Assembly (NCBI RefSeq): GCF_002007105.1 | Contig: NZ_MVBC01000004.1 | Coordinates: forward strand, 124,001 to 188,000 | Source: Hymenobacter sp. CRA2 | GTDB taxonomy: Bacteria > Bacteroidota > Bacteroidia > Cytophagales > Hymenobacteraceae | Length of the DNA stretch: 64,000 nt | Reading direction: 5' to 3' | Shown here: piece by piece, positions 13,763 to 18,787 of the stretch | Numbering within the stretch: the stretch's first letter is position 1 | How the letters are laid out: each line of letters starts with the position of its first letter | Program-made: the position numbers and the translations under genes | Notes under the pieces: model-generated | The model's database searches: none | The model's input: only the letters and a program-made list of their open reading frames with translations | What the model was told of the DNA's origin: nothing

Positions 13763-14680
13763 ATGGAGAACGTGGACCAGAGCGCAGTAAAAGAACAGCT
13801 TGCCTTGTATGGCTTAGCAAGTGATGCAGCTGTTATTCAACCTTTTTTAAAATGGGCGGGTGGCAAACGTCAGCTGCTGCCGGAAATCAAAGCTAGATTA
13901 CCTAAAAACATATATGATGTTACATATCACGAGCCCTTTGTAGGAGCAGGAGCTGTTTTATTAGATATTTTGCCTAAAAATGCGTGTATAAATGATGTTA
14001 ACAAGGAATTAGTTAATTGCTATAATGTAATTAAGAATCAAAGTGAAGCTTTGATACATGATTTGAAGAAACATGAAAATACAGAAGAATATTTTTATTA
14101 TATAAGAGAGCTTGATAGGAGTGAGGCATTTAGTTCGATGAGTGATGTGGAAAAAGCTTCTAGAATGATTTATTTGAACAAGACTTGTTTTAATGGCTTA
14201 TATCGAGTGAATAGCAAAGGTCATTTTAACGTGCCATTTGGTAACTATAAGAATCCAAAATATGCAGATTCTGCGTTGATCAAGGCTTTGAGTTTATATC
14301 TTAGGAATGCTAACGTGAATATCATGAACCATGATTTTGAGTATGCTTTATCTCTTGCTAAAGAAGGGGATTTTGTATACCTTGATCCTCCGTATGATCC
14401 GCTAAATGCTACATCTTCTTTCGTTAGTTATACAGCTGGGCAGTTTGGGCGAGACGCTCAAGAACGCTTGAAAATGTGTATTGATAACTTAGTTAACAAG
14501 GGTTGTAATATTTTAATGAGTAATGCGGATACTACATATATTGATAGTATGTATGCTGGCACTTATATAGTTGAAAGAGTTTCTGCAAATAGGAACATAA
14601 ACGCAAACGGTGCAGGGCGTGGAAAAATCAATGAAGTGCTCATACGCAACAAGTACGAGGCGTATAAAGCAAAGCCTTGA
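13763..14680 (+). CDS. DNA adenine methyltransferase, Dam/DpnIIA class (restriction-modification)
   Basis: This 305-residue D12-class N6-adenine methyltransferase carries FLKWAGGKRQLLPEI (AdoMet motif region), HEPFVGAGAVLLDI (motif I) and the catalytic DPPYDPLNATSSFVSYT (motif IV, DPPY), in the order of DpnII-type enzymes, which usually modify GATC. Its target is inferred from family only. The ATG at 13763 sits at the end of the palindromic array; the frame open upstream is repeat sequence. The gene is visibly AT-rich against GC-rich surroundings and forms a unit with the following ParB-like and endonuclease genes, so lateral transfer is likely. Confidence 0.9.
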   Translation: MENVDQSAVKEQLALYGLASDAAVIQPFLKWAGGKRQLLPEIKARLPKNIYDVTYHEPFVGAGAVLLDILPKNACINDVNKELVNCYNVIKNQSEALIHDLKKHENTEEYFYYIRELDRSEAFSSMSDVEKASRMIYLNKTCFNGLYRVNSKGHFNVPFGNYKNPKYADSALIKALSLYLRNANVNIMNHDFEYALSLAKEGDFVYLDPPYDPLNATSSFVSYTAGQFGRDAQERLKMCIDNLVNKGCNILMSNADTTYIDSMYAGTYIVERVSANRNINANGAGRGKINEVLIRNKYEAYKAKP

Positions 14681-14711
14681 GTATAATATACCATGCCAAG
14701 TGCATTGGTTT

Positions 14712-15067
14712 ATGTGGCTCCAGCACGAAGGACTCAAGCCTTATTATAAAGCTGTTCTACGTTATCCTATTGCTGATATTTGCCTCGGTATTGGTCCATT
14801 GCAAATTTGTAATGACTTAATTGTGTCGCAGGTTGAAGAAATCTTGTTTAATTTTACCACGAAGGATGGGCGTCAGTGTTTATTAGTTCAGAATCGGGTT
14901 GCCTAATAGATGGGCAACACCGGTTGACTGCTGCTAAGCGAGCTGGCTTAAAGTACATTGATGTAATAATTGAAAACGTTGATAATTCCAATAAATCGGC
15001 TGAACAATGTCTAAACAGAACAACAAGGACTTCGCGAAAACAGAAAAGGCTTGGCGGGCTATTGTAG
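14712..15067 (+). pseudogene. Frameshifted ParB-like domain gene in the R-M island
   Basis: Two frames together encode one ParB/Srx-like N-terminal domain. Frame one (14712 to about 14881) gives YPIADICLGIGPLQICNDL; frame two gives ISSESGCLIDGQHRLTAAK, the diagnostic LIDGQHR motif. Adding one T to the TTT run at 14879-14881 joins them into about 118 residues, so a single missing base is the simplest explanation (sequencing error or real mutation). A GTG at 14876 could restart the second half. The end overlaps the endonuclease start by 61 bases. ParB-like domains hydrolyse CTP or ATP or bind DNA; the role in this island is unknown. Confidence 0.6.
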
Positions 15068-16305
15068 AAGAAAGAGATATTGCTGCTATTATTTCTAGTA
15101 AAGGGCACTATGAGATATCTGCTGCTGATATAAAGACTGTCGGGAAGCGTGAGCCGCGCCTCATGGCGAAATTTGATACAGTTGAAGGTTTGCCCCCTGT
15201 ATTCAAAGAGCTTTCAATGTGTATAACAACGATAAGTAATGGGATGTATTTGTTGTATAAAGATAAAGGATACAGAAGTTACCTTGATATTGGAAAGCAA
15301 TATAAGGAAACTGAAGAACGGTTATTTGTTCCCAAGGAGGCGTTTGAATTAGAAACCCTGAAATTCGCTCCAAATTTATCTGAATCAAAAGCAATAGATT
15401 ATGCTCACCATTCTGGGCTGCTTGGGCATGTGATTGGTGATGATAATCTAAGACTTACCTCGCGAGGTCGATTCTTTTCTTCTGATTTTGAATTAAAGCT
15501 CTCTGCTTCGGGTAAGCCTTTTATAATAAACAAAGCACAGATAGAGGTTGATAGTGGTTATGAGGGTATCGACACCTTTACTTTATTTGAAGCAAAATCT
15601 GGTAAGCGCAAATCATTTAATATTAGACAACTGTATTATCCGTATTCCCACTACGTTAAATTTGTAAAAAAACCAATAAAAAACTTTTTGGTAGAATTTT
15701 CTAATGGTATTTACTATTTTACAGAAGTATGCTTTGATAGTAGTGGTATATATTATGATTACGTTCCTTTGAGGACAGTGGCCTATAAAATACATCAACC
15801 CGGGGATGTATTTTTTGACGTCGATAAGGCTTTGGGTTCACCTGTTATATCATCTGGGAGTATTCCTTTGCCTCAAGCGGATGATGTAAATAAAGTTCTG
15901 GACTTAGGTTCGTTGTTGTTGAATAAATCTATGTCAGGGCTTGATGTTGCTCTCAAGTTTGGCTTAGTATCTCGGCAGGGGGACTATTATCCAAACGCTT
16001 TAGCATACATTGGGCTTGCGGAAAGAGTAGATGGGAAGTTTGTGTTAACGCCAGTAGGAAGAAAGGTTTTTTCTATTGAGAATAGAAGGCTTAGGAATGC
16101 AATGTTCGCTAATGCGATATTAAGTACTAGGTTATTCAAGGATCTGATGAGCGTATATTTAAGATCGGGTTATGTCTTTGTGAAGCAGGAAATGTTGGAT
16201 AGGCTTAGTAAAGAAAATATAAATGGTTCAACAATAGAACGCCGTTACACTACCGCGAAAAGATGGTTGGAATGGATTAGGATATATGCAATAGAGGGTA
16301 ATTAA
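15007..16305 (+). CDS. Predicted type II restriction endonuclease, PD-(D/E)XK fold
   Basis: This 432-residue protein is encoded downstream of the Dam-type methylase in an AT-rich island. Seen: a PD-(D/E)XK-like core with E180-V-D182, then a spacer and FEAK (E195, K197), typical of metal-dependent DNA cleavage. The N-terminal 150 residues may be a DNA-recognition part. The C-terminal 120 residues look like winged-helix segments (ALAYIGLAERVDGKFVLTPVGRKVF). I do not recognise a named enzyme. If it pairs with the methylase it should cut the same site, possibly GATC, which is inference. The island ends here; GC-rich sequence resumes by 16330. Confidence 0.75.
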   Translation: MSKQNNKDFAKTEKAWRAIVEERDIAAIISSKGHYEISAADIKTVGKREPRLMAKFDTVEGLPPVFKELSMCITTISNGMYLLYKDKGYRSYLDIGKQYKETEERLFVPKEAFELETLKFAPNLSESKAIDYAHHSGLLGHVIGDDNLRLTSRGRFFSSDFELKLSASGKPFIINKAQIEVDSGYEGIDTFTLFEAKSGKRKSFNIRQLYYPYSHYVKFVKKPIKNFLVEFSNGIYYFTEVCFDSSGIYYDYVPLRTVAYKIHQPGDVFFDVDKALGSPVISSGSIPLPQADDVNKVLDLGSLLLNKSMSGLDVALKFGLVSRQGDYYPNALAYIGLAERVDGKFVLTPVGRKVFSIENRRLRNAMFANAILSTRLFKDLMSVYLRSGYVFVKQEMLDRLSKENINGSTIERRYTTAKRWLEWIRIYAIEGN

Positions 16306-16410: not shown

Positions 16411-17286
16411 ATGGCCTCTGCTCCCTACGCCCAACCCATGCTGCGCGACGGCGCCCTCGACGGCAAAACCATCATCGTGACCGGCGGCGGCACCGGCCTG
16501 GGCCGCGCCATGACCACGTACTTCCTGCAGCTCGGGGCCAACGTGGTCATCAGCTCGCGCAAGCTGGATGTGCTGGAAACCACCGCCAACGAGCTGCGCG
16601 AAAAGACCCACGGCAAGGTGCTGGCCGTGCAGTGCGACGTACGCAAGTACGACGAGGTAGAGCGCCTGGTGCAGCGTACCGTGGAGGAGTTCGGCCGCAT
16701 CGATGTGCTGGTGAACAACGCCGCCGGCAACTTCATCAGCCCCACCGAACGCCTGTCCAACAAGGCCTTTGACGTCATCGTGGACATCGTGCTCAAGGGC
16801 AGCTACAACTGCACCCTGGCCGTGGGCAAGCACTGGATAGCCCAGCAGCAGCCCGGCACCATCCTCAACATCGTGACCACCTACGCCTCCGTGGGCTCGG
16901 CCTTCGTGGTGCCTTCGGCCACGGCCAAAGCCGGCGTGCTGGCCCTCACGCGCTCCTTGGCCGTGGAGTGGGCCAAGTACGGCATCCGCTCAGTAGCCAT
17001 TGCGCCCGGCCCGTTCCCCACGGAAGGCGCCTGGAGCCGCCTGTTCCCCGAGCCGCTGGCCTCTAAGCTGGACCCGGCCGCCTCGGTGCCCCTCAAGCGC
17101 GTGGGCGACCATCAGGAACTGGCCAACCTGGCCGCTTTCCTCGTCTCCGACTTCGCCAGCTACATCAACGGCGAGGTTATCACCATCGACGGTGGCGAGT
17201 GGCTGAACGGCGCCGGTGAGTTCAACAAGCTGGAACTGCTGACCAGCGACATGTGGGACATGATTGAAAAGACCATGCGCCGCTAA
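16411..17286 (+). CDS. SDR oxidoreductase, 2,4-dienoyl-CoA reductase-like
   Basis: This 291-residue classical short-chain dehydrogenase has the cofactor motif TGGGTGLG, CDVRKYDEVE (NADPH-side acidic motif), VNNAAGNFISP, and SxATAKAG in place of the usual YxxxK. A catalytic Tyr is replaced in this position, as in peroxisomal and bacterial 2,4-dienoyl-CoA reductases, which the whole sequence resembles. Such enzymes remove conjugated double bases of unsaturated acyl-CoAs in beta-oxidation. The ATG at 16411 gives MASAPYAQPML, shortly before the Rossmann strand. Its stop codon (17284-17286) touches the left inverted repeat of the GxxExxY cassette. Confidence 0.9.
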   Translation: MASAPYAQPMLRDGALDGKTIIVTGGGTGLGRAMTTYFLQLGANVVISSRKLDVLETTANELREKTHGKVLAVQCDVRKYDEVERLVQRTVEEFGRIDVLVNNAAGNFISPTERLSNKAFDVIVDIVLKGSYNCTLAVGKHWIAQQQPGTILNIVTTYASVGSAFVVPSATAKAGVLALTRSLAVEWAKYGIRSVAIAPGPFPTEGAWSRLFPEPLASKLDPAASVPLKRVGDHQELANLAAFLVSDFASYINGEVITIDGGEWLNGAGEFNKLELLTSDMWDMIEKTMRR

Positions 17287-17418
17287 ATCACGGATTTAGA
17301 CGGATTCATCGGATTGCACGAATTTTGTAGACGATTGTCGGTCAGGCCAGTAGCTTTTGCTGCTGGCTTTTTTCTTATCGGGTATGCTATTTTCAGAAAA
17401 GCTATTTATCCCTTTCCG

Positions 17419-17808
17419 ATGCTGGTTGATATTAGACATAATGAGTTAACCCGCGCTATTATCGGCTGTGCCATGCGCGTGCATAATACACTGGGCAATG
17501 GGTTCCCGGAAATTGTCTATCAGCGCAGCCTAGCAGTCGAACTGAGCGAGTCCGCCCTGGAGTACCAGCAGGAAATTCACTTGCCCGTATACTACAAGTC
17601 TACTGAGGTAGGTAGCCGCCGGGTTGATTTCCTAGTAGCCAATAAAGTCCTGGTTGAGTTAAAAGCCACCCACGAGCTGACACCTGTTCACCACGCCCAA
17701 ATTATTAATTACTTGACGGCTTATCAACTGGAGGTAGGGTTGCTCATCAACTTTGGCCAAGCAAGCCTGGTCTTCAAACGCTTCCTCAAGAACCACTCAG
17801 TACAGTAG
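17419..17808 (+). CDS. GxxExxY protein
   Basis: This 129-residue protein carries the defining GFPEIVY (GxxExxY) signature after the helix RAIIGCAMRVHNTLG. It then has RRVDFLVANKVLVELKA, a D-x(9)-ExK arrangement like the PD-(D/E)XK nuclease core. The family is multicopy in Bacteroidota and its function is unknown; nuclease activity is inference. The ATG at 17419 (MLVDIRHNELTRA) fits the family length; the open frame upstream to 17314 runs through the inverted repeat. A hairpin terminator follows at once. The whole cassette is framed by inverted repeats. Confidence 0.85.
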   Translation: MLVDIRHNELTRAIIGCAMRVHNTLGNGFPEIVYQRSLAVELSESALEYQQEIHLPVYYKSTEVGSRRVDFLVANKVLVELKATHELTPVHHAQIINYLTAYQLEVGLLINFGQASLVFKRFLKNHSVQ

Positions 17809-17814
17809 ATAAAA

Positions 17815-17848
17815 AGCAGCGGAGAGGTAAATCTACCTCCCCGCTGCT
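17815..17848 (+). terminator. Hairpin terminator of the GxxExxY gene
   Basis: A 15-base arm at 17815-17829 pairs with 17834-17848 with one mismatch around a tiny loop. It begins seven bases after the stop codon. Confidence 0.75.
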
Positions 17849-17917
17849 GGGTTTGGTGAACGACAATCAATCGTCCACGAAATCCGTGCAATCCGATGAA
17901 TCCGTCTAAATCCGTGA

Positions 17918-18787
17918 TTAGAATTTGTACTCTTTGTAATCCTTGGTAAACTCTGCCGCCGGAATGGGCTGGTTGGCTACCACCTGCGAGAATTCGAACG
18001 ATTCGAACAGGCCTTTGTCATCCCACACGGCCACGGCCAGGGGCAGCATCATTTTCTGATCGACGCACAGAATGGTGCGGCTGCCGTAGGCGTTGGGCAC
18101 TTGCAGCGTTTTGCCGGCGGGCAGCACGTCCTCGTAGCCCAGGTCGTTGCGCTGGGCAATGCGGAACTCGCCGCAGCCGAAGCGTTCCGCAATCTTGGCC
18201 GCGGTTTCGCCGCCCGTGGTTTTGTAGCTTACGTACCGAAACTGCGGAAAATCGGAGCGAAGCAGGTAGCACAGGCGGCCCTGAATGGTGGTGTCGCCGG
18301 TGTAGCGGAAGGAGCGGCGGTAGGCCTCGGAGCGCTGCGGCGGAATGCGAATCAGGTCGGCAATGACGCCGTAGCCTGCGTCAAGCACCGCGTGGTGCTG
18401 GTTGCGGCGCATGATGGCCCCGTTCGGGTCGAGGCTCACCGTCACGTAGGGGAACTTGCCGGGGTACACCCAGGCGTCGCCGCCGTTCTGGCCCTGCACC
18501 CACAGCACCTCGATGCCCTTCTGGTTGCGCAGGTAAATGCGCAGGGGCGAGGCGCCGATTTTCATGAGCGTGCGGGCCTGCTGGTAGCCGTCGGCGTGCC
18601 GTTCGTTGGCCTTCACGTTGCAACGCAGGGTTTGCAGCTTGTTGATGGAGGCCGACAAGCGCGCCAGCAACGATTCGGTAGTAGGCGCGTCGGTGGGACG
18701 AGCCGGCGTGGGGGCCGCGGCGGGCGGTGCGGTGGTCGGTCCCAGCAAGCTCAGCAGGGACAGCGGCCAGAGCAACGGAGAAATCAT
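17918..18787 (-). CDS. DUF1571-family exported protein with a LysM-like insert
   Basis: This 289-residue protein has an N-terminal hydrophobic segment (LLWPLSLLSLLG), so export is likely, followed by a Pro/Ala/Thr linker. The body (about 40-180 and 232-289) resembles DUF1571, with KANERHADGYQQ, RIYLRNQKGIEVLWVQG and the closing FEFSQV. Between them, residues about 188-232 (GGETAAKIAERFG to GKTLQVPN) look like a LysM peptidoglycan-binding motif placed within the domain. Family function is unknown; a lipid- or envelope-associated role is inferred. The stop at 17918-17920 overlaps the right inverted repeat of the GxxExxY cassette. Confidence 0.75.
   Translation of the reverse strand: MISPLLWPLSLLSLLGPTTAPPAAAPTPARPTDAPTTESLLARLSASINKLQTLRCNVKANERHADGYQQARTLMKIGASPLRIYLRNQKGIEVLWVQGQNGGDAWVYPGKFPYVTVSLDPNGAIMRRNQHHAVLDAGYGVIADLIRIPPQRSEAYRRSFRYTGDTTIQGRLCYLLRSDFPQFRYVSYKTTGGETAAKIAERFGCGEFRIAQRNDLGYEDVLPAGKTLQVPNAYGSRTILCVDQKMMLPLAVAVWDDKGLFESFEFSQVVANQPIPAAEFTKDYKEYKF

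Follow-up and report, generated by a model that had tools for sequence, protein, structure and literature searches.

In the window, the 64,000-nucleotide stretch of DNA analysed here, a GxxExxY gene lies between two inverted repeats (arms) at the junction of an SDR gene and a convergent DUF1571 gene (Table 1). The arms are 52 nt long each, are 94% complementary and stand 530 nt apart, and their outer 39 nt agree at 38 positions, which confirms and lengthens the inverted repeat of 38 agreeing bases in 39 described in a first-pass annotation of this DNA. The left arm begins with the last base of the SDR stop codon and the right arm overlaps the minus-strand stop codon of DUF1571, and so the coordinates also bear out that gene and arms are set exactly between the two stops. 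Each arm consists of four CGGATT-like units with spacings of 10, 9 and 9 nt, as expected from the earlier description of units about one helical turn apart, and the fourth unit of the left arm reads CGAATT. A pattern of three arm units with up to three mismatches is present at two sites in the window, namely in both arms and nowhere else, with 0.04 sites expected by chance. The GxxExxY gene ends short of both arms. Two terminator-like hairpins are located between the arms, compared with 0.9 expected in shuffles of the same stretch.

Table 1. Positions in the window of the GxxExxY gene, its arms and the features around them
Feature	Position	Strand	Remark
SDR gene, flanking	16411..17286	+	DUF1571 is its convergent neighbour in each of the 30 relatives that match best
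TAA, native SDR stop codon	17284..17286	+	lines up with TGA of the complete arm tip TGTCTGAACC known from other elements
Left inverted-repeat arm	17286..17337	+	tip at SDR stop; four CGGATT-like units at 17291, 17301, 17310 and 17319
Intrinsic-terminator-like hairpin, directly inside left arm	17344..17369	+	
GxxExxY (TIGR04256 / PDDEXK_3) gene, type A, 129 aa	17419..17808	+	assigned by profile, motif and predicted fold
Intrinsic-terminator-like hairpin, directly inside right arm	17815..17848	-	
Right inverted-repeat arm	17868..17919	-	tip on stop codon of the convergent DUF1571 gene
DUF1571 gene, flanking, convergent	17918..18787	-	stop at 17918-17920

The protein encoded between the arms is a member of the GxxExxY family TIGR04256 (E 3.4e-41; 140.3 bits, curated cut-off 35) and of PF13366 PDDEXK_3 (E 1.4e-39; 135.5 bits, cut-off 22), and all 36 of its aligned homologues match PDDEXK_3 as well. 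The nuclease-like signature D-x(9)-ExK pointed out at first pass is invariant: D70-x9-E80-x-K82 followed by QxxxY (Q94 and Y98) is present in 36 of 36 aligned homologues, in which G28, E31 and Y34 are also among the invariant residues, and D70, E80 and K82 are invariant again in a second alignment of 26 type-A proteins. The motif order D...ExK...QxxxY is typical of RecB/Cas4 nucleases. The structure model of the window protein (pLDDT 91.7) has its best PDB match in 4ic1 SSO0001 (E 7e-5; TM 0.56, a moderate value), which we take to be a Cas4, followed by alkaline exonuclease, with AdnAB, the Cas4-family protein ACE1 and lambda exonuclease at lower ranks. The protein also matches the PADLOC profile Cas4b (E 8e-5). 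The catalytic domain of I-Bth0305I is a weak fold match (E 0.05) in one structure search and is absent among the 50 matches listed in another, and no sequence relative is found among solved structures at E <= 1. A Cas4 is recognised by four conserved cysteines for an Fe-S cluster. Unlike Cas4, GxxExxY proteins have no cysteine in the invariant or nearly invariant columns of the 36 homologues, and a single conserved cysteine, C17, is seen in the 26 type-A proteins and is confined to type A. None of the 36 homologues matches the Y1 (HUH) transposase family at E <= 0.01, and the presence of a transposase domain within the GxxExxY gene was rejected because domain searches, DDE included, gave none. 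By its motif and predicted fold, the GxxExxY protein is a Cas4/RecB-like PD-(D/E)XK nuclease of predicted activity.

The association of GxxExxY genes with inverted arms is family-wide. Arms were detected in a motif-free manner by alignment of the 600 nt upstream of each gene with the reverse complement of the 600 nt downstream, with a score of at least 16 as the threshold. Flanking inverted repeats are found at 62 of 70 type-A loci of the host family, these 70 being part of 97 listed places, and three of five further type-A loci reach 16 (15.0, 17.0, 9.0, 21.5 and 18.5). In a genome collection covering many phyla, 53 of 80 loci have flanking inverted repeats; 10 of these 80 are from Hymenobacter or Pontibacter and may duplicate the host-family set, and the remainder gives 43 of 70. 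The sources of this collection are Bacteroidota and metagenome bins labelled Calditrichia, Nitrospirae, Poribacteria and others, and the bins may be contaminated. Only 3 of 268 shifted control positions reach a score of 16, and the highest of 450 shuffles scores 16.0. Below the threshold are 8 of the 70 host-family loci and 27 of the 80 others. The units of the arms vary by lineage (CGGATT, CAGATT, CAGGATT, CTGATT and TGATT), and the complete arm tip is TGTCTGAAC. In a second subfamily, type B (LGPGLLESVYE), 22 of 24 loci have arms, and these are made of CGCAGAG-like units. Two simpler views were rejected accordingly: that every GxxExxY gene has CGGATT arms, since type B is without them apart from one chance-level row, and that type B may serve as an arm-free control, since it has CGCAGAG-like arms of its own. 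The first-pass question whether arms flank the gene in relatives is thus answered by most loci in the host family, in the wider collection and in type B.

The sequence of the arms goes with the sequence of the protein. In 98 of 112 elements, no right arm of the set matches the left arm better than its own partner does. Arm similarity correlates with protein similarity over all elements (Mantel r = 0.60), within type A (0.38) and within type B (0.62), as well as in the host-family and the other subset of type A (0.57 and 0.45), and p is 0.002 in each test, the minimum possible with 500 permutations. These tests and the partner matches are based on elements with scores of at least 20; repeated proteins and those having two or more stops are left out. 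Where a genome holds two or three type-A elements, 17 of 18 comparisons place the arms closer to the protein-nearest element of another genome than to the paralogue in the same genome; several of these comparisons involve pairs at the same chromosomal site and hence partly orthologues.

Arms are also dispersed through genomes. In the source genome (G000; 5.88 Mb, 45 contigs), a 17-position arm core with up to one mismatch is present at 41 places, compared with 2 for the reversed control, and an exact 18-nt arm word is present in 19 copies, two of which are at the GxxExxY gene. Several of the arm copies are arranged as inverted pairs, and the roughly 150-250 nt that separate the two members contain no GxxExxY gene. 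A simple cassette with private arms was therefore rejected, because the arm is dispersed genome-wide. G000 has two GxxExxY genes at E <= 0.001. The second one (L042/L048, G000:C11:496336-496674) is without CGGATT-type arms; weak inverted CAGAT/CGGATG units adjoin it, with a score of 15.0 that is under the threshold. At two other G000 loci, a 22-nt word, AGCTTCGCTGAACTTCGTTTCG, lies in the arms between units 2 and 3 (L031, 1018-1039; L034, 979-1000), and near-versions of it occur at L036 and L041 as well as in G002 and G036 arms, making it a small insert or repeat nested inside arms.

Among 150 host-family genomes, 89 have GxxExxY proteins, with at most five matches per genome for both subfamilies together. 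CGGATT triples are found in 69 of the 150 genomes, in genera g1, g4 and g5 only, and CAGGATT arms in 45, in genera g2 and g3 only; genes in g1, g5 and g3 commonly, but not exclusively, have arms of these types. The type of the dispersed arms follows the arm type of the resident gene. The median number of repeat matches per genome is 29 with a type-A gene (n = 36) versus 4 without (n = 30) in g5 (p = 6e-8), and 9 (n = 23) versus 4 (n = 27) in g3 (p = 0.003), where the counts are of pattern matches, so that one arm may give two, and the statistics ignore host kinship. The arms of the genes also predict where a particular repeat is abundant. Among 75 type-A loci, the arm word is located within 600 nt of the gene in G000, G145 and G146 only, and as predicted, it is abundant in these three genomes (19, 16 and 11 copies, respectively) and does not exceed 4 copies in any of the other 147. 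The three genomes span two genera. When flanking proteins within 1 kb of the arm loci are compared, 3 of 20 G000 loci share flanks with G145 (12 loci) and 1 of 20 with G146 (10 loci), and the SDR-DUF1571 locus, which bears the gene in all three genomes, is the sole arm locus common to them. Since G145 and G146 have 5 arm loci in common, their copies are partly inherited, and the three genomes of this prediction test are not fully independent. In G113, G115 and G107, the four-nucleotide spacer of the gene arm recurs among the listed dispersed copies; no such recurrence is seen among those listed for G071, where the two matching spacers are the gene's own arms. Genomes rich in CGGATT matches without a type-A gene also exist, namely G003 (74 triple-unit matches) and G028 (43), suggesting that the gene can be lost or that another agent acts. 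No GxxExxY gene was detected in G003; repeats can thus remain after the gene is lost or come from a different source.

Entire gene-less pairs recur as near-copies at unrelated sites. Two such pairs in G000, L024 and L033, share 86% identity across an alignment of 176 columns that includes both hairpins, and their flanks are unrelated; several other gene-less pairs of this genome are 72-75% alike over about 220 columns. When one gene-less pair is folded in silico as a single DNA strand, a long stem with two strong hairpins results (z -11.9). This shape is a consequence of the arms being inverted and proves nothing on a role at the RNA level. No consistent target-site duplication is found in 96 elements, whose junction repeats closely resemble those of re-paired controls apart from a slight excess of 5-nt repeats (7 of 96 versus 3% in controls).

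Arms tend to start at stop codons. In G000, the stop codon of a long reading frame lies 3-6 nt before TCACGG in 22 of 33 detected arms, and three more of the 33, which contain an insertion or deletion, start at a stop as judged by eye. Among exact arm copies, a stop is found 1-6 nt before CACGG in 15 of 19 in G000, 9 of 16 in G145 and 8 of 11 in G146. Around the GxxExxY genes themselves, 74 of 91 neighbouring 3' ends in host-family type A, 28 of 56 in other type A and 15 of 25 in type B are located from -6 to +12 nt relative to the arm boundary, and neighbouring start codons are within 15 nt of the boundary in 10 of 31, 20 of 45 and 13 of 19 cases, respectively. Type-B genes (L047, L081-L109) are mostly placed between one stop and the start of the next gene (19 of 22) rather than between convergent genes. 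The placement of arms at stop codons is a sharp and directly testable pattern.

Each of the 30 genomes examined, the best 30 of 119 matches, has the SDR and DUF1571 genes side by side and convergent. These junctions were classed by eye; the automatic label 'arms only' also catches other inverted repeats. Two of them have the gene and arms, 15 have an iteron arm on either side but no gene (counting G069 by eye, which is under the automatic threshold), one has a single arm (G003), seven have other inverted repeats or hairpins and five have none. Empty sites, which the first-pass annotation proposed to look for, are therefore present both as junctions without arms and as junctions with arms minus the gene, and two further junctions also show filled and empty states, the partner gene being out of reach in 13 of 30 and 20 of 30 genomes. 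The C-terminus of the SDR protein (IEKxMRR* or close) is kept in armed and unarmed genomes alike, in agreement with the earlier claim that the neighbour was left undamaged. The gene and arms are present together at this site in G000, G119, G145 and G146, suggesting that the window copy of the gene may be old there rather than freshly inserted. The other inverted repeats at this junction include TCATTGCGAGC... in G007 and G005 (L294 and L296) and TCATCCTG... in G101 and G111 (L305 and L311), and the junction may attract several repeat families.

The gene and arms of the window are probably one member of a widespread two-part system, a REPIN/RAYT-like partnership in which an unrelated nuclease acts in trans. 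According to this explanation, the gene for a GxxExxY nuclease lies between two inverted iteron arms, and further copies of these arms across the genome, either single or as gene-less pairs that often hold terminator hairpins, would be non-autonomous elements and targets of the nuclease in trans, in the way proposed for REPINs and RAYT transposases. The protein may bind the four helically phased units and may nick or cut the arm, or the cruciform that the pair can form, and repair or strand transfer would then copy the unit to a new site. Since the arm tip contains a stop and a terminator often follows the arm, placement at the 3' end of a gene would be harmless. The small mobile cassette proposed in the first-pass annotation is thereby retained in one part, the family-wide link between gene and arms, and is given up in the other, since it is not self-contained but one gene among many dispersed arms. 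An arm occurring mostly alone was named there as refuting the cassette. The arm does occur mostly alone, but the gene-arm link stands because the dispersed arms of a genome are of the type found at its resident gene, and the predominance of lone arms fits a trans-acting system.

In REPIN/RAYT systems (PMC3116915), repeats lie on both sides of the gene for an enzyme and are also scattered over extragenic space, frequently as inverted doublets, and the repeat type goes with the enzyme type. The GxxExxY system is alike in having a gene flanked by repeats, in the dispersal of the repeats, often as inverted doublets, and in an arm type that matches the resident enzyme by statistics that ignore kinship. 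RAYT is a Y1 transposase, whereas GxxExxY is a PD-(D/E)XK nuclease and is therefore not a REP/RAYT member. REPs are short palindromes, whereas the GxxExxY arms are rows of about four helically phased units that tend to start on stops. The short gene-less elements with inverted ends that are related to the gene-bearing element resemble the MITEs of DDE insertion sequences, but the GxxExxY elements have no DDE domain and no consistent target-site duplication. The existence of alleles without the gene at the same site is a likeness to homing endonucleases.

It is rather unlikely that the arms are instead host-useful 3'-end elements, comprising a stop, a terminator and protein-binding units, that are selected and inherited at old sites, with a GxxExxY nuclease or regulator acting on them or living between them and nothing mobile now. 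BIMEs between convergent genes offer a parallel for such elements. The start of arms at stops and the 5 arm loci common to G145 and G146 agree with this idea, as does the inheritance of the same arm spacers at one site in G113 and G091. At several sites the terminators enclosed by arms also look native, as would be expected of a long-resident sequence no less than of an insertion. However, the flanks of the G000 arm loci are mostly unshared with G145 or G146, near-identical gene-less units are found at unrelated sites, and the arm type at a single site differs among genomes while the left and right arms match each other.

A homing-like system, in which the nuclease would cut gene-less arm pairs and repair from a gene-bearing copy would insert the gene, is less probable still. 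PD-(D/E)XK homing enzymes exist, and the weak I-Bth0305I fold match as well as the single sites with arms only in some genomes and with arms plus gene in others are consistent with homing; however, homing should fill arm sites with genes, whereas arms are many in genomes with no more than five GxxExxY matches, and the near-copies of gene-less pairs would be left unexplained. Least probable of all, the arms may be moved by an unrelated transposase with GxxExxY as cargo that hitch-hikes between them via recombination, as the position of the gene well inside the arms and the persistence of repeats in G003 would allow, but arm sequence tracks GxxExxY sequence within and between subfamilies and genera, and a consistent target-site duplication of the kind left by common DDE transposases is not seen in the 96 elements.

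A further-reaching form of the two-part, trans-acting partnership is conceivable, if somewhat doubtful: GxxExxY would be the only enzyme in a class of mobile DNA that extends across phyla, in which a lone nuclease, with no transposase of a known type, recognises its own arms and copies gene-less pairs into gene junctions at stop codons while sparing the neighbours, each subfamily having evolved its own arm code. Should the nuclease mobilise the arms, it would spread repeats without belonging to any known class of transposase. GxxExxY proteins are common yet unexplained, and linking them to dispersed repeats offers a testable role for the family and a likely partner for the repeats. A literature search that left out most subscription papers and all bioRxiv preprints found only passing mentions of GxxExxY and neither a function nor a partner repeat for the TIGR04256/PF13366 family, and repeat-oriented searches at the level of titles and abstracts gave no published description of these arm repeats. 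The TAACTGA repeats of PMC4679880 are mostly upstream of start codons and differ from the GxxExxY arms. The GxxExxY gene and its dispersed arms look like partners in a poorly described kind of bacterial mobile DNA.

A low-GC island is located by the SDR gene (window positions 13811-16305), with 36-40% GC over 14000-15999. It contains genes for a type II methyltransferase (PADLOC MTase_II, E 6e-98) and for a type II restriction enzyme with DUF6997/DUF7226/DUF6996 (PADLOC REase_II, E 2e-46).
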